Virus record (IMG/VR): IMGVR_UViG_3300017931_000023
Coordinates: 1 to 26,375 of that record
Direction: 5' to 3' (one strand)
Length of the DNA: 26,375 bases
DNA from: a virus
In this document: one piece after another, positions 1 to 17,038 of the stretch
Layout of the letters: the number at the start of each line of letters is the position of its first letter
Position numbering within the stretch: the first letter of the stretch is position 1
Notes under the pieces: model-generated
What the model was told of the DNA's origin: nothing
The model's database searches: none
What the model saw: the letters and a program-made list of their open reading frames with translations, nothing else
Program-made: the position numbers and the translations under genes

Positions 1-242
1 CTGAGGTATGTGGAGCCGTCCCCGATGTTGTCCAGTATCTTCCCGAGGTGTCCGGACTGGGAGAAGTCTATGATTGCCCTGTGGTTCGGGTCCATGTTGG
101 CACCGGGCATCCTGGCGTATACCAGGCCGTCGTTGATGTTGTCGAGGACCTTGTACAGGTGCCCGGGCTGGGAGAAGTCTATGATTCCACGCCGGTTGGA
201 GTCCATGTTGGCACCGGGCATGCGCAGATAGGCCAAACCATC
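1..242 (-). repeat. 37-residue (111-bp) tail-fibre repeats running off the window edge
   Basis: Two full copies (132-242 and 21-131) and the beginning of a third (1-20). Each reads DG..Y.RMPGANMD.N.R followed by IIDFSQ.GHL.K.LDNI. The plus-strand string GTCCATGTTGGCACCGGGCA occurs at 90 and 201, 111 bases apart. The DG-x2-Y-x-R start also occurs upstream (DGALYSR, DGSSYIR), marking hinges between binding domains. Such repeats are typical of fibre shafts. Confidence 0.75.
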
Positions 243-3200
243 TGCAACCTCGCTGTCCAGGGATGCTAGGCGGACGAGGTGGGGCTGGGAGACCCAGGCG
301 GAGTGGGAGCCTCCCGAAGAGTCATTCCGTGACAATGGTATGAACTGGACATAGGATGTGTTGGCAGGAGCGGTGGCGGTAAGGGTTTCCTTGGCCCACG
401 ACGTGGTGGAGTTCGTAGGGGAATAAAGCGGGCTGAGGGTATTCCCCGCCCCGTCGTAGAACACCAGCAGCATCCCGGCCTGGAACGTGCCGTCGCTCAG
501 GAGGTATACGGAGGCGTAGAAGACGTCCCCTGGCGACGCCTTGAACAGGCGGGTATGCATAATCTCCCCGCCCGGGACAGAAGTGGTTACCTGCAAGGAC
601 TTGCCGTTCGTAATCGGGGAACTGGCGCTGACGGAGAAGGTGACCGGGTAGTATATGCTGGCCTGCGACCATCCTGCTGTCCCGGCGAGGAAGCTCGGGT
701 TATCCAGCACGATTGCCGACCCAGCGTACTGGGCAGAGCGGATATAGCTGCTCCCGTCCGCCAGCACGTCGAGCGTCGCAGGGCCCTCTATCTGCCAGTG
801 GGAGGGGGTCCAGGAGGCATCGGAGTTCGCCGTGGTACAGATAAAGTAGTTTCCCGTGACGGAGGGGTAGGCCACCTCCTGCCCTACCAGGTAGGATGTA
901 CCTGCCGGAGGAGGTGCCCATGCTCCCCTGTAGGTATAGGGGATGCCGTTGACCAGGGCGCTGGCAGCAGGAATCTGGGTCTGGAGCGGGATTCCGGTCG
1001 TGGACCCTGATGGTATGGCGTCGGAGTTTACAGGGCCTATGACGGTCCAATAGCTGGTGTTGGTGGGGGCAATGCCTGCCGTTGTCTTTGCAGTACAGAC
1101 ATAGTAGCTCCCGTTGGAGGTCACCTCCATGCCCACGGCATAGGCGACGGAGGCAGAGTAGGCCCCCTGGAGCGTGTAGGGTATCCCGCTGACCACCCCA
1201 GCGGACAGGGTCCTGGAGTAGAGTGCCCCGTCGCTTATGGCATCGACGGAGGCAGCGGACATGAGCTGCCAGTATGCCGGGGAGGCAGAGGGCGGCTCAG
1301 GGTTCCCCCCCGAGCCGGTGGGGGGCGCAGGGCTTCCCGGTCCATTTTCCACCAGGCACTTGTATGGGCTGCTGGTACCGGACCCCGTGGTGGTGTAGTA
1401 CACCGTCATGGCCACGGAGTTAAGCTCTATGGCCGCCCCCGTGCCGGGCGAGAGGGTACATTGGCAGGATGCCTGGAACCCCAGCGTCCCGGCCTGCATT
1501 GCCGCCAGCAGGGCCGCCGGGGTGATTCCGAACAGGCTGCCCCCGGTGCCGCCGTACACGACGGCCGTGGGGGTGGACGGGAAGTTCCCCGAGGGGTAGG
1601 CGGGCGCAACGCTGGCGGAGTTCCCCGTCATCCCTATCAGGACGATGCTGTCGAACATGGAGGCGGAGGTGCCGCCCGTCTGCGCCACCTTGGCCGAGAA
1701 GGAGATTCCTGTTATGGTGGCACTGGAGGGGACGCCTCCGTAGTTGAAGCCCGTGAACTGGAGGGCATAGGACTCGTTTACTGTGTTGTTCGAGCCGTAG
1801 AGGGTGCAGGTGGCATAGGCGCTCGTCCCCTTGGCATTGCTCGGGTTAGCCCAGGGCTTCTGGCGGGCCACCTGCGTGACTACCGTGGGGGCCAGGCTGC
1901 CCGTATTGCCTGCCCCCGAGGAGGCCGGGGCATACGTGACCTCGTTCCCTGGGAAGTACAGGGTCGTGGCATTCCACGGAAGGACAGGCACAGGAGGGAG
2001 CGTCGGGGGGGCAATCTGCGTCCAGTAGACGATGCCGTTGGTGGTCGTCTGCCCCGGCATGGTGTTGTTGCCCAGGGCAGTGGCGTTCATGCACACCCAG
2101 GTGCTTCCGCCAGACGGCCAGCTGACGATGTTCCCAGGGTCGTAGTCCAGTGCCGCCGACCAGAGTCCCAGGTAGACCTGCGCCCCGCTGGTCGCCCCGG
2201 CGACAGCGGGGCCGGTGAGCTGCCAGTAGGGGCTGTAGGCGATGGTCGAGACGGCCGTCGGAGAGGGCACCGTGCCGGGGGCGGCCACCTCCAGCCAGTC
2301 GGGGTTGGAGGACACGGGGGCAACCGTGGAGGTGTTGGCCACCAGGCACAGCCAGTAGTTGCCGGATATGTCCACTACCAGGTTGGCCGGGTTGTAGGGG
2401 GTGCCGGACGTCCATACCCCCCTGTAGTTGAAGCTCGGCGGCTCGACTGCGGTCTCGGCAGGCCCGTTGGAGACTAGGCAGAGGTAGAAGTTGCCGTCCA
2501 GGTAGGCCACCTGGTTCCCCGGGTCGTAGTTCTCCCCCTGGCTCCACACCCCCAGGAAGGCCTCGGCCCCGGAGATGCTGTTTATGGAGTCTGGCCCTAC
2601 TAGCTGCCAGTCCGCCGTGCTGTTGGGAGGCGGGACGTTGGTGTTCGGCAGGAGGCAGAGGTAGTAGTTCCCGTCCGTGTACGTGACCTCGTTCCCCGCC
2701 TTGTATGCGATGTTGTTGCTCCATGCCCCCAGGAACACCTGTGCCCCCGCCATGGACGACACGCTCTGCGGCCCCACCAGCAGCCAGTCCGTGGCATTGC
2801 TCGGGGGGATGACGTTGGTGTTGGCCACCGTGCAGATGTACTGGTTCCCGTCGATGTAGCTGACCTGCTGTCCGGGTATATATGCGATGTTGTTGCTCCA
2901 TGCCCCGACATAGGACACGCCGGTCTCGTTCTGCCAGTCCGTGGTGTTGGTGCTGGGCGGCACATTGGTGTTGCCTGCCAGACAGACGAAGGTGCTGCCC
3001 TGGTATAGGACTTCTTGTCCTGGGAGATAGGCCAACGAAGAGGACCATGCCGTCACCGCCGCATTGCCTATCTGCTGCCAGTCATTGGCATTGGTGTTCG
3101 GGGCCACGTTGGTACAGGCCGTCAAGCACAGGTAGGTGTTCCCATTGTAGGTGACCTCCGAGCCGGGGGAGTACGCTACGCTCGACGACCATGCCCCCCT

Positions 3201-6200
3201 CCACCACAGGCCTCCCAGCGGCATCCAGTCCGTGGCATTGCTCGGGGGGGTGACATTGGTGTTGGCCACCAGGCAGAGGAAGATGGAGCCTCCGTAGTTG
3301 ACCTCCTGTCCAGGTATATAGGCGATGTTGTTGCTCCATGCCCCCTGGAAGGTCAGGCTGCCTAGCGGCTGCCAGTCCGTAGCATTGGTGTTTGGGGGGG
3401 TGTTGGTATTCTGTACAAGGCAGAGGTATAGCGAGCCGTTGTACGAGGCCTCCATGCCCGGGACGTATGTGGCCGAGCTGCTCCATGACCCCTGGTACGG
3501 GACCCCTCCCAGGAGCAGCCAGTAGGTGGGGGAGCCTGTAGGAGACACACCCGTGTTCTGGATAAGGCACATGTACAGGAAGCCTCCATACGAGACCTCC
3601 TGGCCTACCGAGTACGTGGCCGAGCTGCTCCATGACCCCTGATATGCCATGCCCCCCATCCAGAGCCAGTCGTTCGTGTTGGTGTTCGGGATGACATTGG
3701 TATTGGATGCCAGGCAGACGTAGATGCTGCCAGCATAGGACACGGTCTGGCCGATAAGGTAGGTGGTCCCTGAGTTCCATGCTCCCTGGTATGCCTGGCC
3801 GGTGGCGACGAGCTGCCAGTCGGTGCCGTTGCTTGGGGGAGGGACATTGGTGTTGCTGACCTCGCAGATATAGAGGTTCCCAGAGTACAGGACCTCCTGC
3901 TCGGGGAGATAGGCGATGGAGCTGTTCCAGGCCCCCCGGAAAGATATTCCGCCGAGCCACTGCCAGTCCGTGGTGGAGCTGGTCGGGGGCACGTTGGTAC
4001 AGGATACCAGGCAGAGGTAGACGGCGCTCTGGTAGCTGACCTGCTGCCCTACCTGGTAGGACTGGATGTTGCTCCATGACCCCTGGAAGGTGGTGGCGGA
4101 CATGAGCTGCCAGTCCGTGGTGTTCGAGGGGGGCGGGACGTTGGTGTTGGCCACCGTGCAGAGGTAGAGGTTGCCCGAGTACCCTACGACTTGTCCGACC
4201 AGGTAGGGGACCGAGCCTGACCATTGCCCCGCATAGCTCATCCCTCCCAGCCATGCCCAGTCCGTAGCGTTGGAGGACGGGATGACATTGGTATTGGCGA
4301 CGAGGCAGCGGTAGATTGCCCCGTTATAGATGATATCCTGTCCCACCAGGTAGGCTACCGTGCTGCTCCAGGCCCCCAGGAAGGTCATCCCCCCCATGTA
4401 CTCCCAGTCGGAGGTGTTGGACGGCGGGGGCACGTTCAGGTTGGACTGGATGCAGAGGTATATCCCGCCGCTATACAGTACCTCTTGCCCCGGCTGGTAG
4501 GTCACGGTGCTCGACCACGAGCCAGCATAGGTCATGCCGCCCAGCCATGCCCAGTCCGTGGTGCTGGAGGTCGGGACGATGTCCGTGCAGGAGACCAGGC
4601 ACTTGTAGATGTTGCCCAAATATCCCACCTCCTGGCCAGGCAGGTAGGTGCAGGTGTTGCTCCAGGGGCCCATGTACGGCCAGCCCCCCATCAGCTCCCA
4701 TTTGGCGCTGCCGGGCGGGGGGGTATTGGTGTTCGCCGTCACGCACAGGTAGAGGTTGCTGGCATACGATACCTCGTTCCCCGGGAAGTACGGGGTAGAG
4801 CTGCTCCAGGCCCCCAGGAAGGTCTGGCTGCCTGCCAGGGCGCTGGCATTGGCAGGGCCGATGAGCAGCCAGTCTGCGGTGTTCAGGTTGGGCGTAGTAG
4901 TGCTGGAGTTCCCGGTCAGGCAGAGGTAGGTGTTGCCTGAGTAGGAGATTATCTGCCCTGCGGAGTAGGTGCTTCCAGATGCCCAGACCCCCACATAGGA
5001 CAGGCCTCCAAGGGGCTGCCAATGGGCCGCATCGGAGGGCGGGGGGGTCGTTCCCGAGACAGCGACAAGGCAGATGTAGACGAGGCCGCTGTACGAGACC
5101 TCCTGGCCAGGCAGGTAGGTGCTGGTCCCGGACACCCAGACCCCGAGGAACTCGGACTGGGAGCCGATGAGCTGCCAGTTGGTGTTCCCTATGGCGGGGG
5201 CGGAGTTGGTATTGGCCACAAGGCATAGCCATATGCTGCTGCTGTAGCTTACCATCACGCCGATGGCGTAGGCAGTAGAGGGGGCCCATGCGCCGGAGAA
5301 CGAGAGCCCTCCCCCTAGCTGCTGCCAGTCTGAGGCATGCGTGTCAGGCTCAGCGTTGCTGTTGTCGGCGATGGCGATGTAGAGGTCGCCGTTGTAGGTA
5401 ATCTCTTCGCCCACCGCATAGTCTGTGCTGTTGTCCCATGCCCCCATGAACTGCGAGCCGCTCCCCACGAGCTGCCAGTTGGTGTTGGTCAGGGAAGGGG
5501 GGGAGTTGGTGTTCTCGGCAACGCACAGCCAGTAGTCGCCAAGATAGGTACACTCGTTGCCCGCCAAGTATGGCGTGATGTTGCTCCACGGGCCGGTGAA
5601 GACGTTGACGTTCGATGCCCCGGTCTCCAGGTTGAACGCCCCCGGCGTGCCCGTCAACGCCACTGCCAGGGACTCCACGTCGGCGATGGACTGCTCGGTG
5701 TTCCCGTAGGAGTTGAAGCTGGTGGCCTTCAGGTAGATGGTCTTGCCCACGTACATCTGGGCGTACTGCTCCTGGTAGCTGGCCTCGTCCAGGCGCACGA
5801 AGTCGCTCCCGATGGCAAAGCTCTTGACCGGTGTCCCGTACTGCCCCCTGCGCAGGTAGGACAGGCTGTAGGTCTGGAGGCCCGTCAGGCTGACGTTGGC
5901 ATAGCTTACCAGCTCCAGGCCGGAGGTGCCTATCAGGGCGCTGAGCGTCTCCAGTTCGTCGGCGTTGGACTCGGAGACGGAGGCGAGGGTGGCGTCCGGG
6001 CTGGCCATCTGCACCGTCAGGGTGTCTGTGGTGTCGGGGTCGGCAGTGGCAGGAAGGGCCGTCACCAGCGTGCCAATCCTGCCCGGCACCTCTATCTTGG
6101 CGAGCCAGCTAAAGGTGGTGTTGTCATAGCTGTACCACAGGTCGCACCCCCCCCAGTTCGAGCCGGTGCCGCAGGCGAAGATATACAGCATGTTCGACTG

Positions 6201-8156
6201 CTGGAGGGAGGCTGCGGCGGGCACCTGGACGGCCAGTACCTCGGTCTCGTCCGGGGCGGAATAGGCAGCGTCCAAGGTAGAGCTGGGGAGCTGGGCCTGG
6301 GCGTTCTGGAGGATGGCGGTACCTACGCCCCAGGGGAACTGCTCCGCCTCGATGGTGATGCCTTTCTCCGGGTCGTCCGTCATCTGGGTGATGCGGACGC
6401 CAGTCCTTCCGAACATGGTCCCGGCGGTTCCGAGCAGGCCATCGGTGATGGTAACGATGTCGCCGGGCGAGAGGAAGGCAAAGTTGGACTTTAGGGTGAA
6501 GCTGTACTTGGTGTAGATTGCCGACAGCCTTTGCAGCCGCATGGCGGCGGCCCACTGGGCTGCCGGGTAGGTCGTTATGAACTGGTAGTCCTTGGGGTCT
6601 TCCGTCTGGAGGCCGTACTGCTGCACCGAGGCATCGTCCTGGAGGGGATAGGTGTCCTCGTTGTAGGCGTTCTCCCTTACGGACCACCTGATTCCTATCC
6701 TGTTCCACCTGCTCTGCCAGGGCGTCTGCTCGATAGTGACGGGGTCCTCCTTGTCCGCCACGAAGTCGTTGTCGTCCAGGTCTATGACGGGCTGGGTAGG
6801 GGGGGTGTAGGTGTAGCCGTTGGCCACTGCCGTGGTGTCGCCCAGGGGGATGAACTTCAGCTTCCCCTCGTCCCATGAGATGTAGCACTGCCCAGCCTCC
6901 AGCCACTCGCCCAGGACGCTCATGGCGCTGTCCTGGTTCTGCAATATCTGGGAGATGAAGAAGCTGTTGGCCGCCCAGTAGGACTTGGCGGAGGAGTTGT
7001 TCGAGTCCCCTGCCAGGCTGGGGTCGATATACGCACCCGGAAACCCTATGCCGAACACGTCCGAGGTCAGGACTGCGCCTATGGCGTCGGCAGGAGAGGC
7101 ATCCACGATGCCGCCCCCGAAGGCCAACGGCCCCACCACCTCGAAGTTGTACTGGGGGAGCTGGGGCGCTGAGCCCATATAGATGCCGCTCGACGCCACG
7201 CAGGCTATGTCAGAGTAGCCCAGGTCCTCGCCAGGGTGCTTGCTTGACAGGTAGGACCATGGCTCCTGCCCCCTCGCCCCGTTGAGGAAGGTGAGGTTAA
7301 TCATGTTCGGGGCGTTGGCGTCGGTGTTGGTGTCCTTGTAGCTGTAGAAGATGGAGATTCCCTGGCCGGCGTCGGCGGCGGCGAACAGGTAGTTTCCATT
7401 GTTGTAGCTGTAGGTGCCTGCCACAGTGGGCGTTCCGCCCACCGCTGTCATTGCCGGGCCGCCGGGGTAGTATCCTACCCCGTTGTCGGAGTTGAACTGC
7501 GACTGGTACTGGACGGTGACCTGGTAGGGGGAGTTGAGGGGTACGATGGCCAGCTCGTTCTCCTGGATGATGTAACGGTAGGACGCATAGCTGACAGTGA
7601 CGGCGTTGCCGTACTGGGCAGAGTTGAAGACATACTGGCCCGAGGAGTTGATGGTGTACTGCCCTGGACCGGGCGGGTTGCTGGCGGTATAGACCAGGGG
7701 CACCTGCTGGGTACCGCTTAGCGTCGCCGGGCCGGGAGAGCCGTAGTCATTGGCAGTGACGTTGTAGAGGCTTGCCACAGACACGCCGATATCCTGGGCG
7801 AACTGGGGGTAGTTTACGGGGGTATAGGGGCTGCTGCCTGCCGTGGTGACCTCGGAGTTCGAGTCCACGGCGTAGCGGCCGGTGGAGTCCCAGACCCCCA
7901 GGAAGCCCTGGCACGGCCCCATGCATAAGGCCCCGACCACGGCGGCGGAGTAGACATAGGACGAGGCTCCGCCCGCCTTCTTGCTGGCGCCCTGCGCCTT
8001 GGCCGAGGTGAAGTCCCCGTACCACAGCAACATCCACGACAGCCTTTGCTGCCCGATGAGGACGGGCAGGGTGGTGCCCAGGATGGCCTGGTTTGTCCTC
8101 AGGCCGTTGTAGAGGGTTGTCGGGGTCTGCTTATAGCCTGATCCAAAGAGCGACAT
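1..8156 (-). CDS. Giant tail-tip / host-specificity fibre protein, 3' end outside window
   Basis: The frame is open from the ATG at 8154-8156 (AGGA-type ribosome site just upstream) to the left edge, at least 2,718 codons, with no stop seen. Residues 1 to about 850 look like the tail-tip protein that follows NlpC/P60 genes in GTA-like tails: a segment near residues 480-610 has the Phage-tail_3 style (RLQRLSA, then LSPGDIVTITD, then ITIEAEQFPWG), and one near 790-840 ends in IYLKATSFNSYGNTEQS. Small beta modules with a YxF...G..V..SY pattern sit inside the head. From about residue 855 come tandem modules with spaced W, Y, G, Y-x-C and W residues like CBM5/12 carbohydrate-binding domains. Residues about 2475-2630 look like a jelly-roll binding domain, followed by DG-x2-Y-x-R fibre repeats. 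Inferred role: forms the tail tip and binds host surface glycans. The N-terminal role is fairly sure; the ligand is unknown. Confidence 0.88.
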   Translation of the reverse strand, partial: MSLFGSGYKQTPTTLYNGLRTNQAILGTTLPVLIGQQRLSWMLLWYGDFTSAKAQGASKKAGGASSYVYSAAVVGALCMGPCQGFLGVWDSTGRYAVDSNSEVTTAGSSPYTPVNYPQFAQDIGVSVASLYNVTANDYGSPGPATLSGTQQVPLVYTASNPPGPGQYTINSSGQYVFNSAQYGNAVTVSYASYRYIIQENELAIVPLNSPYQVTVQYQSQFNSDNGVGYYPGGPAMTAVGGTPTVAGTYSYNNGNYLFAAADAGQGISIFYSYKDTNTDANAPNMINLTFLNGARGQEPWSYLSSKHPGEDLGYSDIACVASSGIYMGSAPQLPQYNFEVVGPLAFGGGIVDASPADAIGAVLTSDVFGIGFPGAYIDPSLAGDSNNSSAKSYWAANSFFISQILQNQDSAMSVLGEWLEAGQCYISWDEGKLKFIPLGDTTAVANGYTYTPPTQPVIDLDDNDFVADKEDPVTIEQTPWQSRWNRIGIRWSVRENAYNEDTYPLQDDASVQQYGLQTEDPKDYQFITTYPAAQWAAAMRLQRLSAIYTKYSFTLKSNFAFLSPGDIVTITDGLLGTAGTMFGRTGVRITQMTDDPEKGITIEAEQFPWGVGTAILQNAQAQLPSSTLDAAYSAPDETEVLAVQVPAAASLQQSNMLYIFACGTGSNWGGCDLWYSYDNTTFSWLAKIEVPGRIGTLVTALPATADPDTTDTLTVQMASPDATLASVSESNADELETLSALIGTSGLELVSYANVSLTGLQTYSLSYLRRGQYGTPVKSFAIGSDFVRLDEASYQEQYAQMYVGKTIYLKATSFNSYGNTEQSIADVESLAVALTGTPGAFNLETGASNVNVFTGPWSNITPYLAGNECTYLGDYWLCVAENTNSPPSLTNTNWQLVGSGSQFMGAWDNSTDYAVGEEITYNGDLYIAIADNSNAEPDTHASDWQQLGGGLSFSGAWAPSTAYAIGVMVSYSSSIWLCLVANTNSAPAIGNTNWQLIGSQSEFLGVWVSGTSTYLPGQEVSYSGLVYICLVAVSGTTPPPSDAAHWQPLGGLSYVGVWASGSTYSAGQIISYSGNTYLCLTGNSSTTTPNLNTADWLLIGPANASALAGSQTFLGAWSSSTPYFPGNEVSYASNLYLCVTANTNTPPPGSAKWELMGGWPYMGPWSNTCTYLPGQEVGYLGNIYKCLVSCTDIVPTSSTTDWAWLGGMTYAGSWSSTVTYQPGQEVLYSGGIYLCIQSNLNVPPPSNTSDWEYMGGMTFLGAWSSTVAYLVGQDIIYNGAIYRCLVANTNVIPSSNATDWAWLGGMSYAGQWSGSVPYLVGQVVGYSGNLYLCTVANTNVPPPSNTTDWQLMSATTFQGSWSNIQSYQVGQQVSYQSAVYLCLVSCTNVPPTSSTTDWQWLGGISFRGAWNSSIAYLPEQEVLYSGNLYICEVSNTNVPPPSNGTDWQLVATGQAYQGAWNSGTTYLIGQTVSYAGSIYVCLASNTNVIPNTNTNDWLWMGGMAYQGSWSSSATYSVGQEVSYGGFLYMCLIQNTGVSPTGSPTYWLLLGGVPYQGSWSSSATYVPGMEASYNGSLYLCLVQNTNTPPNTNATDWQPLGSLTFQGAWSNNIAYIPGQEVNYGGSIFLCLVANTNVTPPSNATDWMPLGGLWWRGAWSSSVAYSPGSEVTYNGNTYLCLTACTNVAPNTNANDWQQIGNAAVTAWSSSLAYLPGQEVLYQGSTFVCLAGNTNVPPSTNTTDWQNETGVSYVGAWSNNIAYIPGQQVSYIDGNQYICTVANTNVIPPSNATDWLLVGPQSVSSMAGAQVFLGAWSNNIAYKAGNEVTYTDGNYYLCLLPNTNVPPPNSTADWQLVGPDSINSISGAEAFLGVWSQGENYDPGNQVAYLDGNFYLCLVSNGPAETAVEPPSFNYRGVWTSGTPYNPANLVVDISGNYWLCLVANTSTVAPVSSNPDWLEVAAPGTVPSPTAVSTIAYSPYWQLTGPAVAGATSGAQVYLGLWSAALDYDPGNIVSWPSGGSTWVCMNATALGNNTMPGQTTTNGIVYWTQIAPPTLPPVPVLPWNATTLYFPGNEVTYAPASSGAGNTGSLAPTVVTQVARQKPWANPSNAKGTSAYATCTLYGSNNTVNESYALQFTGFNYGGVPSSATITGISFSAKVAQTGGTSASMFDSIVLIGMTGNSASVAPAYPSGNFPSTPTAVVYGGTGGSLFGITPAALLAAMQAGTLGFQASCQCTLSPGTGAAIELNSVAMTVYYTTTGSGTSSPYKCLVENGPGSPAPPTGSGGNPEPPSASPAYWQLMSAASVDAISDGALYSRTLSAGVVSGIPYTLQGAYSASVAYAVGMEVTSNGSYYVCTAKTTAGIAPTNTSYWTVIGPVNSDAIPSGSTTGIPLQTQIPAASALVNGIPYTYRGAWAPPPAGTSYLVGQEVAYPSVTGNYFICTTANSDASWTPSHWQIEGPATLDVLADGSSYIRSAQYAGSAIVLDNPSFLAGTAGWSQASIYYPVTFSVSASSPITNGKSLQVTTSVPGGEIMHTRLFKASPGDVFYASVYLLSDGTFQAGMLLVFYDGAGNTLSPLYSPTNSTTSWAKETLTATAPANTSYVQFIPLSRNDSSGGSHSAWVSQPHLVRLASLDSEVADGLAYLRMPGANMDSNRRGIIDFSQPGHLYKVLDNINDGLVYARMPGANMDPNHRAIIDFSQSGHLGKILDNIGDGSTYL
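1265..1975 (-). other. CBM-like module split by an inserted beta-rich domain
   Basis: Within the tail-tip protein a module starts normally (PWNATTLYFPGNEVTYAP) but its second half (SPYKCLVENG and later YWQLM) appears only about 180 residues later. Between them lies a beta-rich domain with a WANPSNA start, a GFNYGGVPSSATITGI segment and a VYYTTT end, a style seen in other phage structural proteins. A linker rich in Gly, Pro and Ser follows. Read directly from the translation; the domain assignment is inferred. Confidence 0.6.
2010..5600 (-). repeat. Tandem array of CBM5/12-like 49-residue modules inside the tail-tip gene
   Basis: Twenty-three copies follow one another here; three more lie further on (about 1975-1265 split, 1165-1040, 950-790). 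A typical copy reads GAWSSS..Y.PGQEV.Y.G..Y.C....TN..P....TDWQ.LGG. The codons for the closing Asp-Trp give a regular marker on the plus strand: CCAGTC starts at 4551, 4404, 4257, 4110, 3963 and 3816, exactly 147 bases apart, and at 3666, 3519 (as CCAGTA), 3372, 3225 and 3078 with one step of 150. Copies near 2784, 2607 and 4869 carry about 10 extra linker residues. The pattern of aromatic residues and central Y-x-C fits small chitin- or glycan-binding modules; the ligand is inferred only. Confidence 0.88.
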
Positions 8157-8159
8157 AGC

Positions 8160-8609
8160 CTATCCTATCAGCGTGAAGAACCGTCTGAGGCGGTTCAGCA
8201 GGAAGCCCTCCTTTGTCCCGTGGGAGCCGACTGCCCCCCTGCCCTCCACGGAATGGATTACATACGATGGCCATTTCACGATAATCCCCCCGTGCGTCCA
8301 GCTATGCACGAGCCTCCAGAGCACGAGGTCCCCAGGCCTGGCCCCGGCCTCGGGAACCTCCCGCTTCGCCAGCCTCAGGACCAGGTCCAGGTAGGTCGTG
8401 TCCTCCCTCCTCCTGTCCGTGAGCTGCTGGATGGAATAGAAGGGAAGCTCCAGGTCCTTGGGAATAAGGCCCACGGCCTGATAGACCCGCAGGGGGAGCC
8501 CTGCGCAGTCGCAGCCATACCCCTTCAGTGCCGACCTGCCCACAAAGGGGGTCCCTATCCACCCGATGGCCTCCCTGACTATCGCCTCCCTGGTCTCTGC
8601 CTCCGTCAT
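8160..8609 (-). CDS. NlpC/P60-family tail peptidase
   Basis: A 149-residue cysteine peptidase of the NlpC/P60 family, in the position where GTA-like tails encode a cell-wall peptidase. The motif GCDCAGL gives catalytic Cys35 (DC-x-GL), SWTHGGII gives His106, and YVIHS may give the third polar residue, His119. Its expected role is to cut peptide bonds in peptidoglycan at the tail tip during entry. The ATG at 8607-8609 is chosen because the motif layout then begins as in the family and it follows the hub stop by two bases; a longer reading of the same frame would run deep into the hub gene. The giant tail-tip gene starts just after its stop. If the host were an archaeon without murein, the substrate would have to be something else. 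Confidence 0.88.
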   Translation of the reverse strand: MTEAETREAIVREAIGWIGTPFVGRSALKGYGCDCAGLPLRVYQAVGLIPKDLELPFYSIQQLTDRRREDTTYLDLVLRLAKREVPEAGARPGDLVLWRLVHSWTHGGIIVKWPSYVIHSVEGRGAVGSHGTKEGFLLNRLRRFFTLIG

Positions 8610-8611
8610 TG

Positions 8612-9670
8612 CTACACCGCCTGCTCCGGGTTGGGGACAAACGGGCATCCCCCGTAGTGGATTTGGTTCCCGTACAGGCCGCACGTGGCCATGGTCTTGT
8701 CGCACCCCGGCACCAGCAGCACGGTGTCCCCTGCTGCCACGGCGAAAGGCATGGGCCTGATAAGCTGGAGCTGCACCAGGCCGCTGCTTACCGCCATCGT
8801 CTTGACGCTGCCGCTGAAGCCCGTGTTCTGCCCGCTGGCAAAGGTCACGAAGCCCAGGGTGTAGGCATTGGCCATGCAGGTCCAGACGACTGTCCTGTCT
8901 GCGGCCGTGGAGTACCGCTTGCTCGGCAGCGAGGGGACGCTGGACGCCGTGGTCCCCTGCTGGCTGCACATGTAGGGGATGCCGCCCGCCAGGATGGTGT
9001 TCCCCTTGCTGTACCCGTGGCCGCTGTACCTCGGCGGGAGGTCCAGGCTAAGCCATAGCTGGGTGCTTGCAGCATCGAGCGGGACGGCAGTGCTCTGCCA
9101 GTTGGCCTGGAGCAGGCCGCAGCCGGGGCTGAACAGGGTGTGGCGGCAGCTAGACTGTATCTGGTAAGGGGGGAGGGGGCGGTTCAGCATGTAGGTCATG
9201 TCGAACAGCTCGAAGACCGCCTTGCTGCGCCCTGTCTTCTTCACGTTCCCTACCTGCCCCACGTTCAGCATCATAGTGCCTACGATATTGCCGTTGGGGT
9301 CCGTGCCGCCCGGCCAGTAGGCAGTCTGGATGGTCACCACCGCCCCGTTGAACACCCCTGCTGCCATCGCCTGCATGAAGGTAGCGGTGGTATTGGGGAA
9401 GCTTGCCGTGGCCTCCTGCCACAGGGCCGTCAGGTCCATGCTGCTGGCGCTCGGCCTGTACTCGGCGGAGTTGGTGAACGCCCCCCGCTCCCATGCCCCC
9501 CACCTGCTGGCGTAGTAGGTTGTCCCGTTGTAGGTGATGTCCGTGTTGGTGCCGTACACCACGTTCAGGATGGTGCCGTTGGAGATGGCGATAGAGATAA
9601 GGTCGGCCCGGCCAAACGTCTCGTTCCCGAGGAGGAAGGCTTGTAGCTCGGTTGTGATGGTCTTCGGCAT
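8612..9670 (-). CDS. Tail hub protein, DUF2163 / BR0599 family (GTA gp13-like)
   Basis: A 352-residue baseplate hub protein. The N-terminal half is a beta-rich hub domain; the family signature CRHTLFSPGCG (Cys175, Cys184) and the C-terminal PGCDKTMATCGL then HYGGCPFVP (Cys323, Cys330, Cys342) match the conserved cysteines of the family, whose gene transfer agent member is known to bind an iron-sulfur cluster. Between them an extra module (about residues 228-266, IPYMCSQQGTT to TVVWTC) looks like a small insertion often seen in phage tail proteins. It starts at an ATG with AGGGAG upstream, seven bases after the DUF2460 gene. It should link the distal tail ring to the tail-tip protein. Confidence 0.88.
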   Translation of the reverse strand: MPKTITTELQAFLLGNETFGRADLISIAISNGTILNVVYGTNTDITYNGTTYYASRWGAWERGAFTNSAEYRPSASSMDLTALWQEATASFPNTTATFMQAMAAGVFNGAVVTIQTAYWPGGTDPNGNIVGTMMLNVGQVGNVKKTGRSKAVFELFDMTYMLNRPLPPYQIQSSCRHTLFSPGCGLLQANWQSTAVPLDAASTQLWLSLDLPPRYSGHGYSKGNTILAGGIPYMCSQQGTTASSVPSLPSKRYSTAADRTVVWTCMANAYTLGFVTFASGQNTGFSGSVKTMAVSSGLVQLQLIRPMPFAVAAGDTVLLVPGCDKTMATCGLYGNQIHYGGCPFVPNPEQAV

Positions 9671-9677
9671 GGTCTCC

Positions 9678-10310
9678 CTACAGCAGGTGGCTGCTGAACT
9701 TCACCTCCTGGCACTGCCATACCTGGAGAAGCTGCTCCTCCAGGCCCTCCAGGGAGTCTGCCTCGAAGTGGCAGCGGAAGTAGAATCCCCCCGTCCACGT
9801 GACCGCCTGCCCCGAGCCGGGGCTGTAGCCGCCTGCCCAGGTAAGGTTCCCGTACTGGTCGATGGCGAACTGGCCTGAGGTCAGGGTAGTGCTCCCCACC
9901 TTGATGGTGGGGGTGCCCTGGAAGTTCTGGACGAGGTCCCTGGCCCCGCCAGGGGTGACCAGGGTACGGTACATGGTCAAGACCTGGCTGCTGCTACCAT
10001 TGGTCGTCCCTATGGCCTGGCTGGTGACGGAGTTGTCGTAGGGGTCAAGCCATAACCAGTCTTGACCGGCCCCCTGCACCGCCATGAAGAAGTTGACGAA
10101 CACCTGCCAGGCGGAGTTGGACTGGGTGGCGTCCCCGATGATATAGCTCAGGTCGTACTGGAAGTCCCACAGGGGGAAGAGCATCAGCGGGATACGCACC
10201 TCTCCCCTGCCCGAGGCAGGGGTCTGGACTATGGTCTTGAACCTCGGAGTCCGTTTTACAGGCCACGAATAGGACATTTGCCGTGTAACAAACAAGGGGA
10301 AGACTAGCAT
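9678..10310 (-). CDS. Distal tail protein, DUF2460 family (GTA gp12-like)
   Basis: A 210-residue protein of the DUF2460 type: an N-terminal region with FPLWDFQYDL, a central WLDPYDN, and a C-terminal beta domain with WTGGFYFRCHFEADSLE. In siphophages and gene transfer agents this protein forms the ring at the end of the tail tube, between tube and hub. The ATG at 10308-10310 directly follows the TAG of the tape measure, with a GGGGG stretch 8 bases upstream; a second in-frame Met at residue 12 (MSYSW) is an alternative start that better matches family N termini. The order tape measure, DUF2460, DUF2163, NlpC/P60 supports the assignment. Confidence 0.9.
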   Translation of the reverse strand: MLVFPLFVTRQMSYSWPVKRTPRFKTIVQTPASGRGEVRIPLMLFPLWDFQYDLSYIIGDATQSNSAWQVFVNFFMAVQGAGQDWLWLDPYDNSVTSQAIGTTNGSSSQVLTMYRTLVTPGGARDLVQNFQGTPTIKVGSTTLTSGQFAIDQYGNLTWAGGYSPGSGQAVTWTGGFYFRCHFEADSLEGLEEQLLQVWQCQEVKFSSHLL

Positions 10311-12746
10311 CTAGGCCACCCCCATCCTAGAGATTTTGGACTTCAGGAAGCTCACCATCTCCGTGCCGTGCTTCTGCGGATTGAAGGGCTCGCTAATGAC
10401 CGGGGCATAGTGTATCCCCCCAAAGATGTTGGTTCCCCCGCCTACGCCGCCCTCGTGGGCGGCTGCCTTCTGGATAAAGGTGCTGAGGTGGGCGGGAAGG
10501 GTCATCTCCTGGGCGTGCCCCATGTATAGGCCGGTATCGGGGTGGATGCCGCCCTTCTCGAACGCCATGACTGCGACAAAGGCAGCGGCGGCAGCAATCG
10601 GGGCAAGGATAGGACCTACGATGGGGATAGGCGATACGGCAGAGTATGCGCCCTTGGCCGCCATCTTTGCATCCCCCAGGCCCATCTCGGCATCCGATGC
10701 CTTCTTCATCTCTACTCCCGCCCTGTCCGCAGCCGCCCTTGCTACTCGCTCCATTAGGAAAGCGGCAATCCTTCTCTCCACCATCTTCAGGGACGACTGT
10801 ATCATCAACTCCACGAAGGCGGTCTCGGTAGCCTGGAGTATCTTGTAGGCGCTTCCCCCGTGGACCACCCATTGGGTAAAGGCGTTATTGAAGGCATTGA
10901 TACTGGCCTGGGCCGCCTTGACGGTATCCTGCTGCCAGGAGCTAGTCTGTAGCTTCAGCTCTGTCCCAAGCTCCTTCTGCTTCTGGATAAGCTTGGCAAT
11001 GCTGTCCGTGACGGCGTCATACTTCCTCTTCGTGCCGTCGAGCTGCTCCTGGAGGTCCAGGTACGCCTTCTTCCCGAGGTCTGTGGTGGTATCCGTGGCT
11101 GCCATCTTCATCTTTTTGGCTACCATCTCCACCTCGTAGCCGTCCTGCTCGGACAGCATTTGGCCGTGGATAGCCTTCGCCTGGGCCAGCTCCCTCCTCA
11201 GGGACTCTATGTTGATAGAGGTGGTTACCGGGCCCGTGCCTATCCCCGCCGTCCTGGCCTTGCGCTCCAGCTCGATGTCCTCCAGGCTGCGCTGCTGGGC
11301 CTTTGTCTTCTCACGGAGGGACTCCTCGTCCGACCGTATCGCCTCCTGCGCAGTCTTCCTGGCAAGCTCCTGCTGGAACTCGGCCTCGTGGAATGCCAAT
11401 GCCTCGGACTCTACTGCCGCCTTGTGCTCGGCCTCCGCCCTGGCATTCACGGCATTGTTATGGGAGACGGTCAGCCGGTCGTCGAGCGCCTGCTCTTCGT
11501 TCGCCTCCTTGGCCTTTATCTCCTTTACCTTGTCGGCATTCCCGCCTGCCGCCTTGACCTCGGCGGCATAGCGTGCCTCCATATCCGTACGGAGGGTTTC
11601 TACCAGCCCCTTCTCGGCGCTCTCCTCGGCGTCGGCCCTTGCTATGGCGGCGTTCTTGGCGGCCCCGATGTCGGCCGGGGCCTGCTCCCTCCTGGGTACT
11701 GCGGGGGTGGCCTGTACCTCGGCAAGCCTTGCCTGCTGGCCAATCTCCTCCTTGATGGCCCTGGCATGCTGGTCCTTGCCCTCCAGGACAATCCTGGCAA
11801 GCTCAGAGGCATCCGAGACCTCCCTGCTGTGGAGTTCGGTGCCCTTGGCCATGGCCGTGCTGATGTAGTCCTGGTACCTCCTCTTCAACTGCTCCAGGTA
11901 GTTGTTGACATAGTCCAGGGCCATGTAGTTCAGCTCTTGCTGGGCCCCGGTCGTGGTCCTGACTGCGTTCTGGTAGTCCCGCTGGAGGGCAAGGGCCTTG
12001 CCGCCTGCGGCCACCAGGTCGTCGTTTGACCTTACCTGCGACTCTATGTCTGCGATGGCCTGCTTGGCCTGGGCGGGGCTCGTGTAGGATGCCAGGCCCG
12101 CTGCGATGCCCGGTGCCCCCCCCGTCGCATACTGGGCCATCAACTGGAGCCCGAGGACAATCTTAATCACGTAGTCGTACTGGTCCTCAAGCTGCTTGTT
12201 GAACACGGAGATGCCGGACTCCATCCTGGGGTATTCCCCGGCCAGGTCCGCTAGCTGCATCCTGTACTCGGCAAGCGGCCCCTGCGTCAGGCCTACAAGG
12301 CGCTCCCTCTCCTCGGTCAGCCTGTCGTTGGAGGTGCCTATGAACTTGTTGAGGGCGATGGTGTCCTCGGTGACGGCCAGGACCTTCTCCTGCCATCTAC
12401 CGTACAGTTCGATAGCACCGACGACCAGGGCAACGGGAATGGCGGCGGCGAGCAAGGGGCCTGCCATGCCTGCGGCGGCACCCAGGCGTCCGAACTGGCC
12501 GCCCAGCATCCCCACCCCTGCCTCCATGCCCACAATCTTGCCTGTGACCATGGCTGCGGTGTTCTCAAGGCGGGATACCCCTGCTGCCGCTCCAGTGACG
12601 GCAGGGGTCATGGTGTCCAGCTTGGAGGTCAGGCCGGAGACCTGGCCCTGGAGGGACGAGATTGTGGTGTTGGCCTCGGCGACAGACGTGCGGAGACCGG
12701 AGATATCACCGACAATTTGTACGATTATTTCGTTCTCGCTAGCCAT
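10311..12746 (-). CDS. Tape measure protein
   Basis: An 811-residue protein, mostly helical and coiled coil (long stretches rich in Ala, Glu, Lys and Gln at about 310-520), with a hydrophobic segment near residues 95-115 (GPLLAAAIPVALVVGAIEL) and another Ala-rich one near 725-745. The N terminus pairs a DISGLRTSVAEANTTISSL start with a serine/threonine-rich coiled coil, as in phage tape measures. It sets tail length; at about 1.5 angstrom per residue it predicts a tail of roughly 120 nm. The C terminus (GGIHPDTGLYMGHAQE) resembles the end region seen in many such proteins. It overlaps the upstream chaperone gene by 8 bases and has AGGATAAGGA right before the ATG. Position and composition make this nearly certain. 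Confidence 0.95.
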   Translation of the reverse strand: MASENEIIVQIVGDISGLRTSVAEANTTISSLQGQVSGLTSKLDTMTPAVTGAAAGVSRLENTAAMVTGKIVGMEAGVGMLGGQFGRLGAAAGMAGPLLAAAIPVALVVGAIELYGRWQEKVLAVTEDTIALNKFIGTSNDRLTEERERLVGLTQGPLAEYRMQLADLAGEYPRMESGISVFNKQLEDQYDYVIKIVLGLQLMAQYATGGAPGIAAGLASYTSPAQAKQAIADIESQVRSNDDLVAAGGKALALQRDYQNAVRTTTGAQQELNYMALDYVNNYLEQLKRRYQDYISTAMAKGTELHSREVSDASELARIVLEGKDQHARAIKEEIGQQARLAEVQATPAVPRREQAPADIGAAKNAAIARADAEESAEKGLVETLRTDMEARYAAEVKAAGGNADKVKEIKAKEANEEQALDDRLTVSHNNAVNARAEAEHKAAVESEALAFHEAEFQQELARKTAQEAIRSDEESLREKTKAQQRSLEDIELERKARTAGIGTGPVTTSINIESLRRELAQAKAIHGQMLSEQDGYEVEMVAKKMKMAATDTTTDLGKKAYLDLQEQLDGTKRKYDAVTDSIAKLIQKQKELGTELKLQTSSWQQDTVKAAQASINAFNNAFTQWVVHGGSAYKILQATETAFVELMIQSSLKMVERRIAAFLMERVARAAADRAGVEMKKASDAEMGLGDAKMAAKGAYSAVSPIPIVGPILAPIAAAAAFVAVMAFEKGGIHPDTGLYMGHAQEMTLPAHLSTFIQKAAAHEGGVGGGTNIFGGIHYAPVISEPFNPQKHGTEMVSFLKSKISRMGVA

Positions 12747-16540: not shown

Positions 16541-17038
16541 CTAGTTGTACAGTGCCACCCAGTATGGGGAGCCGAGCACGCTGGTCTGGCCGTACCCGAC
16601 CAGCTTCATCCCCCCCGTATAGCCAGTGAAGTCCGTGAAGCCCGGCCCAGTGTACCCAGTGTATCCTGTATAGCCTGTCCCTCTGGGACCTGTGTAGCCC
16701 GTATAACCAGTGTATCCTGTGTAGCCTGTCCCTCCGGGACCTGTGTAGCCCGTATAACCAGTGTATCCTGTGATGTTGGGACCAGTGTAGCCTGTATAGC
16801 CCGTCCTACCTGTGTATCCAGTGTAGCCAGTGTAACCAGTGTAGCCAGTTCCACCGGGCCCGATAGGACCGGTATAGCCGGTGTAGCCTGTATACCCGCT
16901 GTAGCCCGTCGAACCAATGGGAACCACAGACTGGTCGAAAACGCCGTCCGGCCCGAGCCGGACGAGCTTCCCGGCATCGGACGTGCCTTCGCTCACTATG
17001 ATTGGGTCAAGACCCTTCTGGTACGCTGCTGGTTGCAT
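16541..17038 (-). CDS. Collagen-like Gly-Tyr-Thr repeat protein
   Basis: A 165-residue protein in three parts: a leader of about 43 residues ([30 protein letters not shown]), a repeat region of about 100 residues with 20 GYT triplets plus GST, GYS, GRT, GPI, GPR and similar, and a short tail ([21 protein letters not shown] region). Gly at every third place is collagen-like, but blocks of 2-4 GYT are separated by short breaks ([23 protein letters not shown]) that shift the register. Tyr at X and Thr at Y is unusual for a triple helix, which normally favours Pro. GAGGAG lies 5 bases before the ATG at 17036-17038. Placed right behind the capsid gene, it may decorate the head as fibres. Confidence 0.85.

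Follow-up and report, generated by a model that had tools for sequence, protein, structure and literature searches.

The tail hubs of several phages resemble Rcc01698, the megatron of gene transfer agents (GTAs), in carrying the domains Phage-tail_3 and Rcc01698_C. Among isolated phages, the hubs closest to the one described here (Pseudomonas phage KT1, Brevundimonas phage Polewnik and Acinetobacter phage Effie) share a similar gene neighbourhood and ~31–33% identity over the hub, and belong to proteins that end at ~770–876 residues after 0–2 FN3 or FN3-like domains. In RcGTA, the megatron forms a trimer, and its C-terminal domain binds fibres (PMC7296036). Unlike the proteins of these three phages, which have no array of carbohydrate-binding modules (CBMs), the hub/tip protein encoded on the minus strand of IMG/VR virus record IMGVR_UViG_3300017931_000023 (26,375 bases, metagenome-derived; the whole stretch is hereafter called the window) continues behind its hub into 26 modules of the CBM5/12 type. 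We propose, with a confidence somewhat better than even, that the array is a hub-to-tip spacer lengthened to an extreme by a common phage bead domain, a beaded arm that would present the C-terminal region of the protein.

The same fold is found in ChiA1 (1ED7), S. griseus ChiC (2D49) and V. cholerae DA1, which span ~45–50 residues and have a core W/Y/Y/Y/W pattern; ChiA1 also has a cysteine after the third strand, as do the window modules. CBM5/CBM12 chitin-binding proteins contain 1–3 copies, compared with 26 in the window. In phages, CBM5/12-like beads occur in trimeric spikes, both in domain D2 of CBA120 TSP1 and in the N-terminal domains of the Milano tailspike protein (TSP) gp124, where one or two of them anchor the spike to the tail and glycan binding is unreported. 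D2 is part of the trimer formed by the head-binding domain and can be superposed on ChiA1 at 2.1 Å; according to the authors of that study, there are no reports of such domains binding polysaccharide (PMC3966878). Modules of the same short-loop, Trp-less type as those of the window are present in the fibres of Tunturi_5 (gp29), KLEP7 (gp195), S-CAM1 and P-SSM2 (PHROG 9851 and 5073). These phage fibres have 3–12 copies (11–12 in Tunturi_5, 7 in KLEP7 and 3–5 in other annotated phages), mostly near the N-terminus of separate proteins and in some cases with collagen, whereas the 26 copies of the window are in the hub protein.

An array of 26 modules in a tail hub protein

The hub/tip gene runs from an ATG to the window edge through at least 2718 codons without a stop, and its C-terminal end lies beyond the window. 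Two Pfam domains mark the hub region: Phage-tail_3 (PF13550) at residues 407–592 (67.0 bits, cut-off 23) and Rcc01698_C (PF23666) at residues 693–787 (55.4 bits, cut-off 27). The NCBIfam model of the GTA megatron (NF048004) matches weakly, with 86.5 bits against an equivalog cut-off of 800, and its best stretch aligns only profile positions 827–1173. Because both Pfam domains score above their cut-offs and the megatron match is weak, the protein is a hub/tip protein of the Phage-tail_3/Rcc01698_C superfamily and not a megatron equivalog. The gene order agrees, since tape-measure, DUF2460 and tail-assembly genes lie directly upstream; the order tape measure, DUF2460, tail assembly, minor tail and hub is that of GTAs. 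By homology, the N-terminal third is a GTA/gpJ-type hub that closes the tail tube of a siphovirus-like tail. An earlier note made from the sequence alone had called this a tail-tip protein with 26 modules, and both statements hold.

The count comes from an iterated hidden Markov model (HMM) built from the protein's own modules, which located 26 of them between window positions 774 and 5600; the two halves of module 24 were taken as one and three sub-threshold fragments were set aside. Most modules (22 of 26) are contiguous and complete or nearly so, although module 21 (residues 1867–1909) is truncated and lacks its C-terminal strand, and module 23 carries a long loop. Pfam CBM_5_12 (PF02839) alone recognised 21 stretches, with a whole-protein E-value of 7.6e-90 and scores of 295.2 bits for the whole protein and 27.7 bits for a single module, above the gathering cut-off of 26.2. 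The exact 49-residue (147-bp) period claimed in the earlier note describes only modules 6–19, which are spaced 48–50 residues apart; elsewhere, linkers give spacings of 44–84 residues. Tandem Repeats Finder reported no array at the module region because the copies are only ~56% identical in DNA sequence.

The array fills a variable slot between two conserved parts

We compared module number in at least 120 viral stretches gathered with the module pattern, many of them cut so that their counts are lower bounds, and in ~80 loci with related hubs. The largest array outside the window phage among the matches listed has at least 8 modules. Nearly all of the hub loci have none, while L144 and L175 have one and L180 has two. 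In module number, the array is therefore the extreme of all sequences compared and an outlier against both sets, in line with the earlier note's remark that its size is striking. The hub relatives are spread over genomes of very different phyla, and several carry FN3 in the module slot.

Three IMG/VR relatives (L143, L144 and L145) have the hub and also the C-terminal YLRMPGANMD motif in common with the window, with 62–76% identity in the matched segment, but differ in having FN3 and 0, 1 and 0 modules, respectively. L143 and L145 thus read hub, FN3 and motif tail, and L144 has a single module between FN3 and the same tail. From these relatives, the array fills a spacer slot of variable content that is flanked by the conserved hub and the conserved C-terminal motif. 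With 0, 0, 1, 2 and 26 modules in L143, L145, L144, L180 and the window, respectively, the wider series likewise shows modules placed between conserved parts in the manner of spacers.

The modules have the fold of chitin-binding domains but not their binding loop

An AlphaFold2 (AF2) model of modules 9–11 (mean predicted local distance difference test score, pLDDT, 75.8; predicted template modelling score, pTM, 0.51) has the small three-stranded chitin-binding fold. With Foldseek, its modules superposed on chitinase domains at 1.2–1.9 Å over 46–50 residues per module, including ChiB (1.2 Å over 46 residues) and ChiC (1.5 Å over 46); the A-1(L) fibre matched at 1.8 Å over 50. The model also matches domains of trimeric fibres and spikes in phage 7-7-1 (9rkv), Milano (8fqc) and A-1(L) (8kec). 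The Milano chains matched are most likely the N-terminal module of the tailspike; the Milano short tail fibre gp31 was considered as the source of this match and ruled out by sequence. Tunturi_5 combines 11 such modules with collagen repeats, which trimerise.

At the level of sequence, the module profile matches ChiA1 (1ED7) with an E-value of 5e-8, and the conserved aromatic columns 1, 5, 11, 19, 24 and 42 of the window modules are mostly fold residues shared with ChiA1. The alignment shows a three-residue deletion at LAGW687E that places W687, the key chitin-binding residue of the ChiA1 CBM12, opposite V, I, T, S or A. CBM5 domains instead bind through an aromatic pair (adjacent Y/W-W) plus a third exposed aromatic (PMC8449059). 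The W-W pair of S. griseus ChiC is opposite Val-Ala in the window modules.

We scanned this loop in all usable modules (24 from the window, 35 from known phages and 220 from other viral contigs). The loop has 15 residues in the window modules versus 18 in the reference, and 23 of the 24 testable window modules have no aromatic in it; the exception is module 26, which has a Trp (ASWTPSHW). Both alignable reference loops (ChiA1 and V. cholerae DA1) have the Trp, compared with none of the 35 known-phage modules and 4 of the 220 modules from other viral contigs. Our family-wide statement about phage modules is restricted to Trp, as other loop aromatics do occur (5 of 35 and 91 of 220, respectively). 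Phage proteins annotated or detected as CBM5/12 (L130–L137 and L010–L129) mostly lack the loop Trp.

With the loop shortened and both W687 and the CBM5 pair absent, the modules belong to PF02839 by sequence and fold but lack the defining functional feature of chitin-binding CBM5/12 domains. The fold named in the earlier note is thus confirmed, whereas a glycan-binding surface is not supported, as a surface aromatic patch of the known kind is absent; this absence is one half of what the note had named as refuting its reading. Because the binding loop is missing, the beads are probably not classical chitin-binders. Glycan binding via another surface, through weak multivalent contacts, is possible.

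These results bear on the idea that the array is a multivalent glycan adhesin, a sticky brush in which each module would weakly bind a repetitive surface polysaccharide and 26 copies (78 per trimer) would provide avidity. Such a function is consistent with the CBM5/12 family and chitinase-type fold, with the presence of 58 Trp and 79 Tyr among the 1207 residues of the array and with an aromatic at column 44 in five modules. Furthermore, the authors of the RcGTA study propose that many weak sugar sites help the particles cross the capsule (PMC7296036). The near-complete absence of the ligand Trp and its loop, its rarity across phage modules and the Val/Ala found at the CBM5 pair positions argue the other way, and in A-1(L) no binding to the host was seen for the distal carbohydrate-binding module of the neck fibre (PMC10966104). 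We consider an adhesin unlikely. Of the two alternatives offered in the earlier note, a long fibre fits best and a glycan-binding adhesin is weakened by the missing loop aromatic; a spacer arm explains the array better than a chitin-like adhesin does.

The array is old and, in the contigs compared, fixed

A nearly identical gene is present in five IMG/VR contigs from other metagenomes. The array is covered in full by L005, up to module 22 by L003 and up to about module 11 by L002, in each case with >99.6% identity and no insertion or deletion in the array; L004 spans the first 4–5 modules and L006 the hub only. The window itself is a metagenome fragment, which could raise the suspicion of an assembly artefact or a decayed gene. 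However, the independent contigs agree, as L002, L003 and L005 reproduce the array without an indel, and the frame is open across 2718 codons. We rejected an artefact on these grounds, and the probability left to either explanation is negligible. L005 ends no more than 10 bases from the window start. It also has a 1-bp deletion at window position 7269, in the hub and not in the array, that breaks the hub frame relative to the other contigs and is probably a sequencing error.

Variation within the array is limited to five single-nucleotide polymorphisms (SNPs) that L002 and L003 have in common in module 2 and a single one in module 1 of L004. The five shared SNPs cluster at window positions 5352–5431, against near-identity in the remainder of the array; the cluster may represent a local exchange tract.

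Modules share on average 43% of their residues and 56% of their bases. Neither the modules nor the hubs contained a region of sufficient conservation for a profile query. Identity between modules at four-fold degenerate sites is 0.43, compared with 0.38 after shuffling synonymous codons, adjacent modules resemble each other hardly more than distant modules do, and no exact repeat is longer than 26 bp, a length within the range of the shuffles. From these near-random degenerate sites, the low likeness of neighbours and the short repeats, we conclude that the array is of ancient construction and has undergone slight exchange at most since then. It is fixed in the contigs at hand, which show no copy-number differences over the part that each spans.

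The earlier note had suggested that recombination expands and contracts the array to tune host range. The regular 147-bp spacing of modules 6–19, the few exact repeats of 26 bp and the cluster of SNPs in module 2, with its hint of local exchange, would be consistent with such phase variation. The equal copy number in every contig, the divergence of the copies (too great, at 56% DNA identity, for a phase-variable tandem repeat) and the properties of synonymous sites, neighbours and repeats described above all contradict it, and we regard it as very improbable.

A proposed beaded arm behind the tail hub

How could such an array serve the virion? In the arrangement that we favour, 26 beads of the CBM5/12 fold, placed behind the hub in a slot that in relatives holds FN3 or nothing, would form a long arm. 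Assuming ~3 nm per bead, the arm would measure ~80 nm when fully stretched, a very rough estimate. The hub is expected to be trimeric, as in RcGTA, so each virion would have either three arms or one three-stranded beaded fibre. The beads would act mainly as spacers that hold the C-terminal region and its YLRMPGANMD element far from the tail, and the arm may cross capsule or slime to reach the cell surface.

Several points weigh against this arrangement. The AF2 model comprises three modules of a single chain and does not fix their relative orientation, and the tip is outside our view because the window ends within the gene. A fold known from glycan binding is more than a plain spacer would require, which weakens the case, and module 26 retains the loop Trp. 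The loss of FN3 also finds no explanation in an arm.

The composition of the array would fit a more specialised version of the arm. Lys and Arg account for only 7 of ~1207 array residues (window 2001–5600), or 0.6%, versus 4.6% in the protein's own hub and 6.2% in the modules of other viral contigs. Such a low content, which had not been predicted, fits an arm that must not stick. More doubtfully, the array could be a dedicated capsule- or slime-penetrating hub arm whose beads no longer bind sugar and are almost devoid of positive charge. A low-charge arm would avoid sticking to anionic slime and deliver only the distal C-terminal domain to the cell surface, as a bead-based analogue of FN3 or coiled-coil central tail fibres.

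The scarcity of Lys and Arg also leaves few tryptic sites, as expected if the array were a scaffold or armour in which one Cys per module and the bead surfaces cross-link chains or dock tail proteins to make a stiff, protease-resistant shaft. Indeed, the Cys is conserved in 22 of 23 aligned modules, three modules have a second one, and tail components of Milano are disulfide cross-linked (PMC10811340). Yet the single-domain ChiA1 has the same Cys, which may be a mere core residue, and no partner protein was identified. A scaffold is therefore improbable, and we retain the spacer arm as the preferred reading.

Features of the locus and neighbouring genes

The coordinates of the array, the hub and the neighbouring tail genes are collected in Table 1. 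The ~185-residue insert in module 24 has no Pfam match above cut-off, no match in phages (tblastn) and none among PDB sequences. The C-terminal region, the predicted distal end of the protein, likewise lacks Pfam matches above cut-off and PDB matches by sequence; in phages, tblastn gave only a marginal match, in a Leuconostoc phage. At its cut end are two tandem copies of the motif DGxxYxRMPGANMDxNxRxxIDFSQxGHLxKxLDNI (window 3–230), and a genome scan for MPGANMD found none. An AF2 model of residues 2470–2660 made without relatives was unusable (pLDDT 36.9) and was set aside.

Table 1. Positions of the hub/tip gene, its parts and the adjacent tail genes in the window.
Feature	Position	Strand	Residues and remarks	Evidence
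Tail hub/tip protein gene	3..8156	-	ATG at 8156	Single stop-free frame
Hub region, Phage-tail_3 and Rcc01698_C	5796..6938	-		Pfam, GTA_megatron
Modules 1–6, CBM5/12-type	4680..5600	-	853–1159, spacing 50–59	Own HMM, E ~2e-20 or better each
Modules 7–19, CBM5/12-type	2763..4676	-	1161–1798, spacing 48–50	Own HMM, E<=6e-23 each; Pfam PF02839; AF2 model (modules 9–11)
Modules 20–23, CBM5/12-type	2001..2735	-	1808–2052	Own HMM
Module 24, two halves	1248..1979	-	~2060–2077 and 2262–2303	Own HMM, half-matches E=1.3e-9 and 9.8e-10
Insert in module 24	1371..1925 (approximate boundaries)	-	~185 residues	Own HMM; no database match
Module 25	1029..1169	-	2330–2376	Own HMM, E=3.9e-20
Module 26	774..932	-	2409–2461	Own HMM, E=1.1e-15; loop scan
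C-terminal region, predicted distal end	3..749	-	Incomplete	Motif common to L143, L144 and L145
Upstream tail genes, GTA-like order	8160..12746	-		PHROGs and Pfam
Minor tail	8160–8969	-		PHROGs and Pfam
Tail assembly	8612–9670	-		PHROGs and Pfam
DUF2460	9678–10310	-		PHROGs and Pfam
Tape measure	10311–12746	-		PHROGs and Pfam

These genes belong to a minus-strand block of structural genes of a tailed phage. L003, L004 and L005 differ strongly from the window in the central part of the tape-measure gene (window 10416–12451), although both flanks are ~97–100% identical, a pattern that points to allelic exchange within the tape measure. We also identified a short collagen-like protein with GYT-type repeats (window 16541–17038, minus strand; 51-bp tandem units at 16656–16828) that matches PHROG families of collagen-like minor tail and tail fibre proteins.

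Significance

Many phage proteins are labelled as ‘carbohydrate-binding module 5/12’ or ‘chitin-binding’ from a domain match alone. The label may mislead predictions of receptor binding because the phage modules mostly lack the Trp with which CBM12 domains bind chitin (present in none of the 35 modules from known phages and in 4 of the 220 sampled from other viral contigs). The window offers an extreme natural case, with relatives that have 0, 1 or 2 modules at the same site, in which a spacer function can be distinguished from binding.

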